Positions 23,684 through 29,350 of a stretch of 64,000 nt of DNA are shown in pieces. The notes under the pieces were generated by a model. The model was not told the origin of the DNA. It saw nothing but the letters and a program-made list of their open reading frames with translations, and did not search any database. The DNA lies in NCBI RefSeq assembly GCF_900188125.1, contig NZ_FZOW01000005.1, forward strand, positions 186,001 to 250,000. The letters are read 5' to 3'. The position numbers and the translations under genes were made by a program. The stretch's first letter is position 1. Each line of letters opens with the position of its first letter. This DNA is from Rhodococcoides kyotonense. Its GTDB lineage: Bacteria > Actinomycetota > Actinomycetes > Mycobacteriales > Mycobacteriaceae.

Positions 23684-25003
23684 ATGAGTGCACAGGCGGA
23701 CGCCGTCGTCGGCGTCGCGACCACCCGCAAACAGGTATTCGCCTGGGGGATATGGGATTGGGGATCGGCGGCATTCAACGCGGTGATCCTGACGTTCGTG
23801 TTCTCCGTCTACCTGACCGATGCCGTCGGGGACGACCTTCCCGGTTCTATTTCGGCGACGTCCTGGTTCAGCTGGGCGATCGGACTGGCAGGCGTCGTGA
23901 TCGCCGTTCTCGCACCGATTTCTGGGCAACGATTCGATGCGCGTGGCAAGCGCAAGCGGTCGCTGGGAATTCTCACGGGCCTGACCGTCGTGAGCATGGC
24001 GGGTCTGTTCTTCGTCCAGGACGACTACCACTACCTGTGGCTCGGTCTCGTGCTGCTCGCTGCTGGCTCGATTCTCTTCGAACTCGCCAGCGTTCCGTAC
24101 AACTCGATGCTTCGGCAGGTCTCCACGCCGGAGAACATCGGCCGCGTCTCCGGATTCGGCTGGTCGATGGGCTATTTCGGCGGCATCGTTCTGTTGCTCG
24201 TCTGCTACTTCGGGTTCATCACCGGCGACGGTGACACCCGTGGACTGTTCGGACTGACCACCGACGGCGGCCTCAACATTCGACTCGTCGCTCTCCTCGC
24301 TGCGGTGTGGTTCGCGGTATCGGCGATTCCGTTGTTTCTCGCCGTGCCGGAGATGCCCGCCACCGGTGCCGATCCGGGTGCCGCCAAAGCCGGAATGATC
24401 GAGTCGTACAAGGTGCTCTTCCGCGACCTGCGAGACCTGTGGACGGCGGACCGTCGCAGCGTCTATTTCCTGGCAGCGAGTGCCCTGTTTCGCGACGGTT
24501 TGGCCGGCGTCTTCACGTTCGGCGCCGTCCTCGCGGTCAGTGTGTACGGCATCGGCACGGCCGACGTGCTGCTGTTCGGTGTTGCTGCCAACGTCGTCGC
24601 CGGACTGGGTGCGGTCACCGCGGGCCGGTTCGACGACAGGACCGGGCCGAAGGCAGTGATCGCGTTCTCGCTCGCATCGATGATCGTCGCGGGCGTCGTG
24701 TTGCTGTTCGTGTCCGGGCCCGTCCTGTTCTGGATCTTCGGTCTGATCCTGTGCCTGTTCGTCGGGCCGGCGCAGTCGTCGTCGCGCACGTTCCTGGCAC
24801 GCCTGGCTCCGCCGGGACGCGAGGGCCAATTCTTCGGTCTGTACGCGACGACCGGTCGTGCCGTGTCGTTCCTCGCACCCACGATGTTCGGGTTGTTCGT
24901 CTGGATGTTCGACGCGGACCGCGCAGGCATCGGCGGCCTTCTCGTCGTGCTCGTCGTCGGCTTGGCCGCCCTGATGGCCGTGAAGTCGCCGGACCGGGTC
25001 TAG
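23684..25003 (+). CDS. MFS transporter, Atg22/UMF1-like
   Basis: 439 residues with about 11-12 membrane helices. The N-terminus WGIWDWGSAAFNAVILTFVF and the later SVPYNSMLRQVSTPENIGRVSGFGWSMGY-type segment are typical of the UMF1 (Atg22-like) branch of MFS, whose eukaryotic relatives export amino acids from vacuoles. Bacterial substrates are not known. It is divergent from the PadR gene by about 117 bp and ends against the alpha/beta hydrolase with a 4-base overlap. Confidence 0.85.
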   Translation: MSAQADAVVGVATTRKQVFAWGIWDWGSAAFNAVILTFVFSVYLTDAVGDDLPGSISATSWFSWAIGLAGVVIAVLAPISGQRFDARGKRKRSLGILTGLTVVSMAGLFFVQDDYHYLWLGLVLLAAGSILFELASVPYNSMLRQVSTPENIGRVSGFGWSMGYFGGIVLLLVCYFGFITGDGDTRGLFGLTTDGGLNIRLVALLAAVWFAVSAIPLFLAVPEMPATGADPGAAKAGMIESYKVLFRDLRDLWTADRRSVYFLAASALFRDGLAGVFTFGAVLAVSVYGIGTADVLLFGVAANVVAGLGAVTAGRFDDRTGPKAVIAFSLASMIVAGVVLLFVSGPVLFWIFGLILCLFVGPAQSSSRTFLARLAPPGREGQFFGLYATTGRAVSFLAPTMFGLFVWMFDADRAGIGGLLVVLVVGLAALMAVKSPDRV

Positions 25004-25829
25004 ACGGGGCGGACGCGGGCGAGTATTTCGTCGGCGAGGCGCGCCGACGCCTCCTCCGGGATCCAATGAGACACGCCGTCGAGCTCGACGAAGGAGTAAG
25101 GGGCGTCGACGAATTCGTGGCATCGCTCGGCCGCGGCGCGTCCGATGGCCGAGTCCTGATTGCTCCAGACGAACGTCGTCGGCACACGGACCGGCTCGAG
25201 CTTGCCGCTCGCACTCGTCATCGCTCGATACCAGTTGAGGGCCGCCGTCAACGCGCCAGGCTGCTGGAGATGTTCCACGTAGCGGTCGTCGGGACTGCTG
25301 TCGGAGAACATCGCCCTCAATCGCGCGGCGTCGTTCTCGAGCAGTACGTGCTCGGCTTTCCCTTCCTCACGAAGCAGACCGATGTAGCTGGACCGCTCCT
25401 GCTGGTCGGCGTCCTCGCGTAGTGCCCATCCGAATGCCGCAGTATGTGGCACCGACACGGCGGTCAAGGTGCGCACACGATCCGGGTGCTGCGCCGCCAG
25501 CTGCCACGCGACGGCCGCGCCCCAGTCGTGGCCGACGACGTGCGCCGACGTGAGGTCGAACGCGTCGAGCACCCGAGGACGTCTCCGACGAGCTCGTCCG
25601 ACGCGTAGGCATCGACCCCGTCTGGACGGGCGCCGGGTGAATACCCGCGCTGGTCCGGCGCGATGGTCCGCAGTCTCGCGGCGGTGAGGTGGGGTACGAC
25701 GGCGTCCCAGCATGCGGAAGTCTGTGGAAATCCGTGCAACAGGACGGTCGGAATCCCGTCGGACGGGCCCGCGACGAGCACATCGAACTCGAGCTCGCCG
25801 AGGGTCACGGTCGTAGCGGTCGACGTCAT
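25000..25829 (-). pseudogene. Alpha/beta hydrolase (epoxide hydrolase/dehalogenase-like), frameshifted
   Basis: Two overlapping frames together make one ~276-residue hydrolase. The first (ATG at 25829) gives LGELEFDVLVAGPSDGIP, VLLHGFPQTSACWDAVVPHL and APDQRGYSPGARP, then loses similarity. The second frame resumes with VLDAFDLTSAHVVGHDWGA (nucleophile Asp in HDWG) and ends with the histidine region GVSHWIPEE. The break falls at a run of three C (25572-25574, GGG on the coding strand). A fourth base there would restore one frame. It may be a true lesion or a homopolymer sequencing error. The ATG overlaps the upstream TetR stop by four bases, so the two were built as an operon. Confidence 0.85.
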
Positions 25830-26467
25830 GAACGATCCTCTCGGCTGGGTCCTGGCTTCCAGGCTCCCATGCCGAGCACGATGAGGCGTACCTGCTGCTC
25901 GGTTCTGAGGAGAAGATCTTGTTCGTTCCTGCTACCGGGTCTGTCGATCTCCAGTAGACCTTCGGCGGCGGTCAGCATCGTCGAGACGATCAGGTCTGCC
26001 GCCATCTCCAGGTCGTCGACATTCCATGTCTCGAGACCCGGCATACGGGACAGGTCGATCGTCAGTTCGCTGACGAACATGCGAAGTTCGGTCGCGAAAG
26101 CTCTGCGTACCTCGGTGACGCCGCCGTAGCGCTCGCGGGCCAGGAACCGGAACTGCTCCTCGTGACTGCGAACCTGCCGGACGAGGATGCGCAGCGACTC
26201 CGACGCGTTCTTGACGGTGGGGTCTTTCCGTGCGTCACGCAACATCTGTCGGAGCATGTGCATCGAGTCCTCGACCAGCGCGACACCGAGGTCTTCCATC
26301 GACGCGAAATGCCGATAGAAGGCGGTCGGCACGAGGCCCGCGGATCGGCTGACTTCGCGGAGGCTCACGCTCGCGAAGGACCGATCTCGAAGCAGGTCGA
26401 GTGTGCCGTCGATCAGCGCTTGGCGCGTGCGTTCCTTCCGCTCGGCTCTCGTCCCCGGTTCCGTCAC
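25826..26467 (-). CDS. TetR-family regulator, DesT-like by position
   Basis: 213 residues. The helix-turn-helix is at about 8-55: KERTRQALIDGTLDLLRD, then VSLREVSRSAGLVPTAFYRHF. The C-terminal domain has WNVDDLEMAADLIVSTMLT. It starts from a GTG at 26467. It is divergent from the ferredoxin reductase/desaturase pair, the same arrangement as Pseudomonas desT with desCB, where DesT senses the acyl-CoA saturation state. An AGTGnAC...GTnCACT palindrome in the gap is a likely binding site. It is also translationally coupled to the downstream (broken) hydrolase. Confidence 0.83.
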   Translation of the reverse strand: MTEPGTRAERKERTRQALIDGTLDLLRDRSFASVSLREVSRSAGLVPTAFYRHFASMEDLGVALVEDSMHMLRQMLRDARKDPTVKNASESLRILVRQVRSHEEQFRFLARERYGGVTEVRRAFATELRMFVSELTIDLSRMPGLETWNVDDLEMAADLIVSTMLTAAEGLLEIDRPGSRNEQDLLLRTEQQVRLIVLGMGAWKPGPSREDRS

Positions 26468-26620
26468 GGAAGTGAGTTTATGACTGTCCACCCCTCGGGC
26501 ACCTCGTTCCTCGTCGAGCCGTTGGATTCGAATGTGACCCAGGGCACCTGCAGGGCCCTCTGTTGCCGACGCCACTCGACCGTTGACAGTGCCCGGTGAC
26601 TGTCTGGCACACTCGACTCC

Positions 26621-26638
26621 AGTGCACAGACGTACACT
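26621..26638. promoter_or_regulatory. Candidate operator for the desaturase operon
   Basis: The 18-bp interrupted palindrome has the form AGTGnAC-n4-GTnCACT, with six of nine pairs matching. It lies 40 bp before the ferredoxin reductase start, in the gap with the divergent TetR gene. It recalls the DesT/FabR type of box; binding is inferred. Confidence 0.5.
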
Positions 26639-26677
26639 GAAAAAGTTGCTCGGTGTCGACCGAGATCGGGAGGCGAG

Positions 26678-27790
26678 ATGACGCTCCAGCAGAAGTCGCG
26701 ACGGTCCAGGTTCTTCGGAAAGTTCTCGGCGTTGTCGCTGTTCGAAGCCATGGCGACCCCGCACGAGCTCGACCGATACCTCGAACTCGTCGACCCGATG
26801 ACGACCGTGCGTGATCTACGTGCCGAGGTCGTCGACGTACACCGATCCACCGACGACACCGTCACTCTGACGCTGCGCCCGACGTGGCAGTGGAAGGGTT
26901 TCGAGGCGGGGCAGTTCGTTCAGGTCGGGGTCGTCGTCGACGGTGTGCGACACACCCGGTGCTACTCGCCCGCATGTTCGCAGTATCGATCCGACGGGCA
27001 CATCGAGATCACCGTCAAGGCGCATCCCGACGGCGTCGTCTCGGGATATCTACATCGTGAAGCCCGTCCCGGCCTGGTCGTCGGTCTGTCGCAGGCGGAG
27101 GGCGCTTTCCGTGTCCCGACGCCTCGGCCCGAACGCCTTCTGCTTCTCAGTGGCGGCAGTGGCATCACGCCCGTTCTGTCGATGCTGAGGTCGCTGCTGG
27201 ACGAGGGGTGCGGCAGCGACATCACGTTCGTTCACTACGCTCGTACCGAGCGCGATGTCCCGTATCGGCGCGAACTCGACGACATAGCAAGAACTTTCGA
27301 CACAGTTCGAAAAGTCTATGTCTACACCGAACAGGACTCCGGCGGTGATCTGCACGGACACTTCGGTCGCGAGCACCTGGACGCCGTCGCGCCGTGGTTC
27401 GCCGACGCGCAGACGTTCCTGTGCGGTCCGCCCGGGTTGACGAAGGCGGTGACGGACACGTACGACGGCCTCGGCCTTGCCGACCGCGTCCACGTCGAGG
27501 AATTCGCAGCGCCGGCGGTGGCGGTCACCGACGATGCGGACGGGCAGCTGACGTTCTCGGAAAGTAAAGTGGTGGCGGAGAATTCGGGCCGCACTCTGCT
27601 GGAGCAGGCCGAGGATGCGGGGCTGTCCCCGGCCTATGGATGCCGAATGGGCATCTGCTTCACCTGCACGTCGGTGAAGACGTCCGGATGCACGAAGAAC
27701 GTCAAGACGGGCGAGGTCGACGTGGAGCCGGACAAGGAGATTCAACTCTGTGTGTCGGTACCCGTCGGCGATGTCGCTCTCGACATCTGA
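26678..27790 (+). CDS. Ferredoxin reductase partner of stearoyl-CoA desaturase (Rv3230c-like)
   Basis: 370 residues with three modules. An FAD domain (about 45-145) contains the RCYSP motif. An NAD(P)H domain (about 150-260) contains LLLLSGGSGITPVLSML and FLCGPPGL. A C-terminal plant-type 2Fe-2S domain has YGCRMGICFTCT near 320-331 and the last cysteine in IQLCVS. It passes electrons from NADPH to the desaturase encoded 40 bp downstream, as described for Rv3230c with DesA3. The ATG at 26678 follows GGGAGG closely. Confidence 0.92.
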   Translation: MTLQQKSRRSRFFGKFSALSLFEAMATPHELDRYLELVDPMTTVRDLRAEVVDVHRSTDDTVTLTLRPTWQWKGFEAGQFVQVGVVVDGVRHTRCYSPACSQYRSDGHIEITVKAHPDGVVSGYLHREARPGLVVGLSQAEGAFRVPTPRPERLLLLSGGSGITPVLSMLRSLLDEGCGSDITFVHYARTERDVPYRRELDDIARTFDTVRKVYVYTEQDSGGDLHGHFGREHLDAVAPWFADAQTFLCGPPGLTKAVTDTYDGLGLADRVHVEEFAAPAVAVTDDADGQLTFSESKVVAENSGRTLLEQAEDAGLSPAYGCRMGICFTCTSVKTSGCTKNVKTGEVDVEPDKEIQLCVSVPVGDVALDI

Positions 27791-27830
27791 AAAGCCGAGT
27801 CATACAAGATCCGGAACGGAGAACGAAAGA

Positions 27831-29015
27831 ATGTTCGGAATATCTTTTCCCACACTGTCTTTCCCACTGTTCGGCGGTACTCGCGCCGAGACGCCCGAGG
27901 AGCTTGCCCCGACGGTGCTGTCGTACGAGAAGGTCCAGGAGCTCGGCCGAGAACTGGACGAGCTTCGCGCGCGTACCGTGGCCAAACTGGGCGACGAGGA
28001 CCGAGAGTACATCTACAACATCGTCAAGACGCAGCGCGGATTCGAGATCGCCGGTCGCGCAATGATGTACGTGCCGTTCATTCCACCTGTTTGGCTCGCG
28101 GGCGTCGGCGCACTCGGTGTTTCGAAGATCCTCGACAACATGGAAATCGGCCACAACGTGATGCACGGTCAATACGACTGGATGCGTGAGCCCGGCTTCA
28201 ATTCGCGTGTGTTCGAATGGGATACGGTGTGCCCGGCCGATCAGTGGAAGCATTCGCACAACTACATGCACCACACCTTCACCAATATCGTCGGCAAGGA
28301 TCGCGATATCGGATACGGCATTCTGCGGATGGACGAAGGTCAGAAGTGGAATCCGTACTACCTCGGAAACCCGGCATACGCATTCCTGCTGATGGTGTTC
28401 TTCGAGTGGGGCGTCATGCTGCACGACCTGGAAGCGGAGAACGTTATCCAGGGCAAACGAAAGTGGCACGACGTCAAGCCGCTACTGAAGGGCATGTGGC
28501 GCAAGGCAGGACGGCAGGTATTGAAAGACTACGTCGTATTTCCTGCGCTGTCCGGGCCGTTCTTCGTGACGACCTTGGTCGGAAACGTCGGCGCCAACCT
28601 GATTCGTAATCTGTGGACTTACTCGATCATCTTCTGCGGTCATTTCCCGACGGGGGTGCAGACGTTCACCGAGGAGGAGACGGAGAACGAGTCGAGCGGC
28701 GAATGGTACGTCCGTCAGATGCTGGGATCGGCGAACATCGAGGGAAGCCCGCTGTTCCACATCATGTCCGGCAACCTGTCGCACCAGATCGAGCACCATT
28801 TGTTCCCCGACCTGCCGGCGCACCGCTATCCGGAGATCGCGCCCGAGGTGCGCGCGCTGTGTGAGAAGTACGATCTGCCGTACAACACCGGCGGCTTCTG
28901 GCGGCAGATCGGGACGGTGTGGGGCAAGATCTTCAAGCTTGCGCTACCTGACTCGCTGACCGGTTCCAAGCCGCACGTCGGTGTTATCGTCGAGCGCAAG
29001 AAAGTTGCGGCCTAG
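27831..29015 (+). CDS. desA3: Membrane acyl-CoA/fatty acid desaturase (DesA3-like)
   Basis: 394 residues. All three histidine boxes of membrane di-iron desaturases are present: HNVMH (109-113 region), HSHNYMHH at 141-148 and HQIEHH at 318-323. Hydrophobic pairs flank them (about 78-105, 180-200, 235-272). DesA3 introduces the delta-9 double bond to make oleate in mycobacteria. The start at 27831 has GAGAACGAAAG upstream; the frame extends further back but there overlaps the reductase. It is the second gene of a two-gene operon with its reductase. Confidence 0.92.
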   Translation: MFGISFPTLSFPLFGGTRAETPEELAPTVLSYEKVQELGRELDELRARTVAKLGDEDREYIYNIVKTQRGFEIAGRAMMYVPFIPPVWLAGVGALGVSKILDNMEIGHNVMHGQYDWMREPGFNSRVFEWDTVCPADQWKHSHNYMHHTFTNIVGKDRDIGYGILRMDEGQKWNPYYLGNPAYAFLLMVFFEWGVMLHDLEAENVIQGKRKWHDVKPLLKGMWRKAGRQVLKDYVVFPALSGPFFVTTLVGNVGANLIRNLWTYSIIFCGHFPTGVQTFTEEETENESSGEWYVRQMLGSANIEGSPLFHIMSGNLSHQIEHHLFPDLPAHRYPEIAPEVRALCEKYDLPYNTGGFWRQIGTVWGKIFKLALPDSLTGSKPHVGVIVERKKVAA

Positions 29016-29062
29016 CCAGGCCGACGCCGGCATCGACAGACCTATGTAGGGGAGACGAATCG

Positions 29063-29308
29063 GTGGTAGGCAAATTCGAACGCAACAAGGACACGGTTCA
29101 AGAATTGACGGAATCGGCCGCCAATCACGTCGGGAAGATCGCCGTCATCATCGCGGGAGCGGTGCGTGACGTGACCCGCGAGATCGGCGATTGGATCTCC
29201 GACGGCATCGAGATGCGCGAGGCCGCCCGCAAAGCGCGCGACGACGCCTCGCTCGGCACCGTGATCAACGGTGAATTCGAGAATCGTGGAGACGCCGAGA
29301 ATCGCTGA
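29063..29308 (+). CDS. Small helical protein of unknown function
   Basis: 81 residues from a GTG start with GGGGAG eleven bases upstream. The protein is mostly helical, with one mildly hydrophobic stretch (HVGKIAVIIAGAVRDVTREI, about 22-41) and many charged residues. No family is recognised. It begins 47 bp after the desaturase and ends before a clear terminator, so it may be the third gene of the desaturase operon. Confidence 0.68.
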   Translation: MVGKFERNKDTVQELTESAANHVGKIAVIIAGAVRDVTREIGDWISDGIEMREAARKARDDASLGTVINGEFENRGDAENR

Positions 29309-29323
29309 GCGCTCGATTCGGTG

Positions 29324-29350
29324 AGCCACCCGGCAGACGTCGGGTGGTTT
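29324..29350 (+). terminator. Terminator-like hairpin after the desaturase operon
   Basis: Arms CCACCCG and CGGGTGG are separated by eight bases and followed by TTT. It sits 17 bp after the 81-aa gene and before the PucR gene. Confidence 0.65.

Follow-up and report, generated by a model that had tools for sequence, protein, structure and literature searches.

Organization of the reductase–desaturase locus

We examined a stretch of 64,000 nucleotides from Rhodococcoides kyotonense (contig NZ_FZOW01000005.1, positions 186,001 to 250,000; hereafter the window), which lies within a 6.3-Mb genome; all coordinates are window positions. The open reading frames and their Pfam domains place the gene of a TetR-type repressor divergent from the genes of a ferredoxin reductase and an acyl desaturase, and a palindrome, here called O1, lies between them. 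The set is composed as follows.

26467 (GTG) to 25826, minus strand: TetR-type repressor of the DesT/FabR family, 213 amino acids (aa), assigned by its match to DesT in the PDB, profile search, Foldseek and Pfam
26621–26638, no strand: O1, putative operator of the reductase–desaturase operon, AGTGCACAGACGTACACT, an exact match unique in the genome and conserved in relatives
26678–27790, plus strand: ferredoxin-type NAD(P)H reductase with FAD, NAD and 2Fe-2S domains, DesC-like (Pfam)
27831–29015, plus strand: membrane acyl desaturase, DesB-type (Pfam FA_desaturase, 3.4e-32)

The desaturase carries three histidine boxes, HNVMH, HNYMHH and HQIEHH. The TetR gene probably starts, without a leader, at the GTG at 26467. 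An earlier reading made from the letters alone (the sequence-only reading) had described the divergent TetR gene, a palindrome about 40 base pairs (bp) ahead of the operon and an 81-aa protein after the desaturase. All three lie where it placed them: the reductase starts with the ATG at 26678 on the plus strand, O1 ends 39 bp before that codon, and the frame of the small protein occupies 29063–29308.

The regulator is a DesT relative

The same reading had likened the repressor to DesT, and sequence, profile and fold bear this out over the full length. The protein matched DesT (PDB 3lsj) with E=3.3e-30 across 202 residues, and a profile built from 33 relatives found DesT as its sole PDB match at E<=1e-10 (E=1.3e-50). 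The predicted model had a mean predicted local distance difference test score (pLDDT) of 86.7, and Foldseek ranks 1–4 were all DesT: palmitoyl-CoA-bound (two chains), DNA-bound, and bound to the desCB promoter with oleoyl-CoA (CoA, coenzyme A). The next match, FasR, was far weaker (2.9e-06 vs 4.3e-11). The fold alignment with DesT showed 34% identity and included the ligand domain. The Pfam domains TetR_N and TetR_C_46 both scored above cut-off; the TetR N-terminal domain together with the full-length likeness to DesT places the protein in the DesT/FabR family. Its gene arrangement in the window, divergent from a reductase–desaturase (desCB) pair, is that of DesT proper, and a divergent reductase is present in 125 of the 133 distinct loci compared. 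Across the relatives the recognition region GLVPTAFYRHF hardly varies. Within its own genome the protein stands alone, the second-best TetR scoring 35.5 bits against 450. The best named match was from Rhodococcoides kyotonense at 94% identity, a figure from which the records nearest to the genome itself may have been excluded.

O1 is a local and conserved candidate operator

O1 in the window is a near-perfect palindrome, AGTGCAC and GTACACT around a centre of AGAC. The exact pattern AGTGnAC-n4-GTnCACT occurred once in the whole genome, and the same pattern read backwards as a control had no exact match there. At up to two mismatches there was no genome-wide excess (159 matches vs 151 for the control). 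Because of this single exact match and the lack of a two-mismatch excess, O1 behaves as a local operator rather than as part of a large regulon. Across 61 genomes of the family, a stricter box pattern was present in 35 and its control in one; a few of these genomes had it in two places.

Loci were gathered by similarity of the TetR protein, independently of the box: 59 came from 200 genomes of the order (the 60th match being the window's own) and 80 were named loci. With the window included and identical regions removed, 133 distinct loci remained, of which 125 have a divergent reductase. Regions of the order loci were extended to reductase codon 20; an earlier cut at the estimated start, now superseded, had left 10 of 60 seemingly boxless. 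With the extended regions, a box at up to two mismatches was present in all 59 order loci, and the sequence-only reading had proposed looking for just this box upstream of orthologous operons, its lack of conservation there counting against the model. The outcome did not refute the model: the box was found in 125/125 loci with a divergent reductase, compared with 0.85% of shuffles. In a subset of 81 entries, 50 boxes were exact, 25 had one mismatch, four had two and two had four; the last are L138 and L139 of Gordonia, which have no operon in the fetched stretch. The consensus across loci is AGTGTACANNYGTTCACT followed by GAA. As is characteristic of DesT/FabR repressors, the target promoter carries a conserved palindrome of the AGTGnAC-n4-GTnCACT type.

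Eight regions, among them L182 and those of G139 and G028, lacked a divergent reductase. In five of these genomes the operon was traced elsewhere. Where the TetR gene is not adjacent to the operon, the box was nevertheless found upstream of the reductase in four of the five traced genomes, with one mismatch in G017, G034 and G178 and two in G665. The regulator and the desaturase also occur together. Counting the matches listed for the 200 order genomes, and no fragments ranking below them, a desaturase of at least 59% identity is present in 57 genomes, every one of which has the TetR protein; of the 60 genomes with TetR, only G028, G094 and G139 lack such a desaturase. In genus g2, apparently Mycobacterium, 135 of 148 genomes searched hold a TetR relative at E<=1e-30.

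The O1 matrix was also applied to Escherichia coli. It ranked the site upstream of fabB first of 4,984 positions and the one upstream of fabA second of 3,484. We take these to be the FabR sites, in line with PMC3462791 and PMC4804515, and the FabR core printed in the latter is ACAnnTGTnnnnT. O1 and the two E. coli sites read as a related, not identical, DNA code.

Predicted promoter, candidate second operator and CRP/GlxR-type site

The region between the two divergent genes holds further candidate elements.

26583–26588, plus strand: putative -35 element TTGACA of the operon promoter, with exact TTGACA near O1 in relatives
26608–26613, plus strand: putative -10 element CACACT after a 19-bp spacer, read from the sequence
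26475–26492, no strand: O2, weaker candidate second operator, AGTTTATGACTGTCCACC, three mismatches, from the O1-matrix score and relatives
26533–26548, no strand: CRP/GlxR-type site, TGTGACCCAGGGCACC, two mismatches, 88 bp upstream of O1

O1 lies just 3' of the putative -10. An exact TTGACA within 60 bp 5' of O1 was present in 71/125 loci (0.9% of shuffles). With up to one mismatch it was present in 114 loci, starting 32–38 bp before O1 in 87 and 26–27 bp before it in 19; this spacing would put the start of transcription at about the first base of O1.

O2 overlaps a putative -10 (TAAACT, minus strand) of the probably leaderless TetR transcript. In the window it barely passes (O1-matrix score -1.7 vs -2.1 for the 99% shuffle level) and is not significant by itself, about 19 matches at up to three mismatches being expected per window. 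Across relatives, 69/125 loci have another site, lying between O1 and the TetR gene, that scored above 99% of shuffles.

The pattern TGTGA-N6-TCACA at up to two mismatches was present anywhere in the region in 103/125 loci (2.6% of shuffles), and 99 loci have a copy 57–65 bp upstream of O1. Among 29 permuted half-sites the highest count at that distance was 11; anywhere in the region it was 54, for GTGTA, which resembles the operator. Other spacers gave 36 at most. In the window there is no copy at 57–65 bp, and the best copy is the one at 88 bp. A site at 88–89 bp also occurs in the relatives L121, L122 and L124, and one at 60 bp in the closest relative, L120. The genome encodes a full-length CRP-family protein (PDB 3d0s, 6.6e-135; 4byy, 3.5e-111), which may bind this site. 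These entries we take to be CRP of Mycobacterium tuberculosis and GlxR of Corynebacterium glutamicum, respectively. The pattern matches the GlxR consensus TGTGANNTANNTCACA given in PMC4254451.

Only a few bases separate the CRP-type site from the second operator in L076 and loci like it in genus g2, so that the two proteins expected to bind these sites could compete there.

The desaturase is a paralogue of DesA3

The sequence-only reading had called the desaturase DesA3. This holds for the broad family, and not for orthology. The window desaturase is 46% identical to a DesA3-type protein (L232), which is closer to another desaturase of the window's own genome, the paralogue on contig C31 (61%). 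Neither a TetR match nor a box turned up in the stretch fetched around that paralogue. We therefore rejected the assignment as orthologue of DesA3 (Rv3229c), which is ruled out by these identities and by the absence of TAC-N6-GTA clusters.

The comparison with the Rv3229c/Rv3230c region, also suggested in that reading, showed TAC-N6-GTA clusters in DesA3-type operons instead of the box. At up to two mismatches no box was found near the reductase start in any of seven DesA3-type loci (in L242, three matches with two mismatches lie elsewhere). In all seven (L241–L247), three TAC-N6-GTA sites spaced 15 bp apart lie at the desaturase start, and in six of the seven two such sites precede the reductase; the window operon has none. 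The same arrangement is printed for Rv3229c/Rv3230c in PMC3388012. Similarly, among paralogue desaturase loci with a reductase and upstream DNA, none of 10 had a box at up to two mismatches close to where the reductase starts. Matches with two mismatches occur roughly 0.9 kb off in L107 and 3.5 kb off in L266. Neither a reductase match nor a box is present in L102 and L103, and a 16-kb stretch around L102 (L118) has one box match, 3.4 kb from the desaturase.

Third gene and hydrolase

Two further genes flank the core set.

29063–29308, plus strand: conserved protein of only 81 aa, modelled as one long amphipathic helix (conserved neighbour; model)
25000–25829, minus strand: alpha/beta hydrolase 3' of the TetR gene, its frame broken in the window (Pfam on both halves)

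Of 78 loci with a desaturase, 72 encode a homologue of the 81-aa protein on the same strand within 250 bp after that gene; in the other six, the homologue lay further on in three and was not found in three. In G017, G665 and G666, whose TetR gene lies elsewhere, the operon likewise has a homologue next to it. A profile search of L072–L118 and L241–L247 detected the small protein in no genus g2 locus and in no paralogue locus lacking TetR. The gene occurs once in its own genome. The protein matched no Pfam or NCBIfam family at E<=0.001 and had only two weak matches in PHROGs (0.019 and 0.054). Its model is one helix over residues 2–62 (mean pLDDT 77.7; predicted template modelling score 0.39). 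The six sequences examined were amphipathic without a transmembrane stretch (hydrophobic moment 0.51–0.67; highest 19-residue hydropathy 1.14). A protein of the membrane surface or a partner of the desaturase is the likeliest reading, and a guess.

The TetR transcript had been said to run into a hydrolase. The hydrolase ATG (25829) indeed overlaps the TetR stop, and the hydrolase frame itself is broken: the open reading frames 25464–25829 and 25000–25713 are in different frames. The two halves are in one frame in 17/17 relatives in which both were found. The break, at 25464–25713, may be a recent mutation or a sequencing error.

Discussion

Our analysis indicates that the operon is, with high probability, under an acyl-CoA-responsive switch of the DesT/FabR kind. 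The sequence gives strong support to DesT-like control: the TetR protein is a DesT relative, the box is conserved, and in four of the five genomes traced it stayed with the operon where the regulator has moved away. Comparative evidence strongly supports a model in which this TetR would repress the operon through O1. DNA binding and the sensing of saturated and unsaturated acyl-CoA are suggested by homology to DesT. Repressor dimers on O1 would block RNA polymerase at the operon promoter, and dimers on O2 would limit the synthesis of the repressor itself. A long-chain acyl-CoA held in the C-terminal domain would set the affinity for DNA, the unsaturated form favouring binding and the saturated form favouring release. 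The saturated form would thus free the operon, and the cell would produce desaturase when its lipids are overly saturated. In most relatives, the CRP/GlxR site upstream of the -35 probably adds activation by the carbon state of the cell, and the small helical protein produced along with the desaturase probably supports this enzyme at the membrane.

Several observations weigh against this reading. The E. coli fabB and fabA sites score only 9.1 and 3.1 bits in the O1 matrix, compared with 26.0 for O1 in the window. The protein scores 134.1 bits in the NCBIfam FabR equivalog model NF008402, below the curated cut-off of 151, and for that reason we do not call it FabR. Many loci are closely related, so the box counts are not independent events, and their controls are base shuffles. 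The operon box of G666 is degenerate, with three mismatches. In G139 and G028, the TetR gene apparently faces the gene of a small membrane protein with the boxes between them, and the paralogue-type desaturase operons of these genomes carry no box.

In L274 (G666, Gordonia) the regulator lies away from the operon and the box has decayed, possibly a natural case of weakened control. In G139 and G028, two boxes lie between the TetR gene and that of the short membrane protein, as read from open reading frames (L113:3207-3271; L114:11713-11778).

Three other explanations have to be considered. The same operators and target might follow the logic of the mycobacterial repressor MadR, in which many acyl-CoAs bind, only saturated long-chain ones release the DNA and unsaturated ones do not enhance binding. 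This is the logic described for MadR in PMC8872791, for desaturase genes in related bacteria. We regard it as unlikely here. Among solved structures the TetR protein is closest to DesT, and the reported MadR motif TCTGTG-N7-GT occurs in the window at chance (2 vs 2.24 expected); one match overlaps O1, but its CACAGA letters are not conserved in the O1 logo. It is far less probable that the TetR protein senses another molecule, such as the substrate of the hydrolase, with the desaturase as a mere downstream effector. The start of the hydrolase runs over the TetR stop in the window, and the gene comes after TetR in relatives of the Rhodococcus group; however, both halves were found only in loci of that group, the flanks fetched for the other genera with TetR, box and desaturase not showing both, and the fold match takes in the ligand domain of DesT. 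That the palindrome is kept as a promoter part or for another regulator, as its position mostly 32–38 bp after the start of a TTGACA-like -35 might suggest, is scarcely credible, given that it is missing from paralogous desaturase promoters, has a second copy before the TetR gene in more than half of the loci (69/125) and resembles the sites upstream of E. coli fabB and fabA.

The DesT-like switch thus favoured has several known counterparts. The nearest is DesT-desCB of Pseudomonas aeruginosa, with a full-length repressor of the same type; the PDB title of 3lsp names the desCB promoter. In Pseudomonas, as the sequence-only reading noted, desT is divergent from a reductase and acyl desaturase pair, with a palindromic operator. 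The system described here differs in its second operator, its CRP/GlxR-type site and its conserved third gene. PMC3462791 reports binding of P. aeruginosa DesT upstream of fabAB as well, and here there is no box excess elsewhere in the genome. FabR of E. coli and Salmonella belongs to the same TetR subfamily, but it acts on fabA and fabB rather than on a desaturase. MadR (Rv0472c) of mycobacteria is likewise a TetR repressor of desaturase genes responding to acyl-CoA; it differs in its reported motif and in its targets, desA1 and desA2, and deletion of madR left DesA3 (MSMEG_1886) unchanged (PMC8872791). The mycobacterial DesA3/Rv3230c operon shares the combination of reductase and membrane desaturase, but it is a paralogue without the DesT box.

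In the open-licence literature we recognized no account of this operon in actinobacteria being controlled by a DesT-type regulator, and the word "desaturase" does not occur in the main text of a survey of mycobacterial TetR proteins (PMC4482099). The kind of switch is known; the literature searched held no example of its actinobacterial set-up, which combines two operators, a cAMP-receptor (cAMP, cyclic AMP) site and a third gene. Tentatively, we propose that Mycobacteriales and some of their relatives have a second aerobic desaturase operon that works as a multi-input switch: a DesT-type repressor would sense acyl-CoA saturation at two operators, a cAMP-receptor protein at a fixed upstream site would add activation by the carbon state, and, outside Mycobacterium, a hitherto unnamed family of small amphipathic-helix proteins would aid the desaturase at the membrane. 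It would be wired apart from DesA3, so that one cell would hold two desaturase systems under separate codes. This study provides a specific, testable regulator and operator for desaturase genes in Rhodococcus, Nocardia, Gordonia and Mycobacterium, whose lipids matter, and suggests that closely related DNA codes serve unsaturated-fat control across actinobacteria and gammaproteobacteria. It also sets the operon apart from the DesA3 operon, for which it could be mistaken, and brings to light a conserved family of small proteins as candidate desaturase partners.

More distant relatives of the regulator occur as well. Across the phylum, the FabR model found eight genomes (L210–L217) from another family of the class (f18, genus g62) with distant DesT/FabR relatives at 37–42% identity. 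None of the eight has a reductase match within 1.5 kb on either side of the regulator, and three have a two-mismatch box match. In L202 (G407), from yet another family, the reductase is divergent with a two-mismatch box match between. Outside the actinobacteria, the myxobacterium Minicystis rosea (L195) has the TetR gene, a divergent reductase, the desaturase and a one-mismatch box, without the small protein, which suggests transfer of the set between phyla or its great age.

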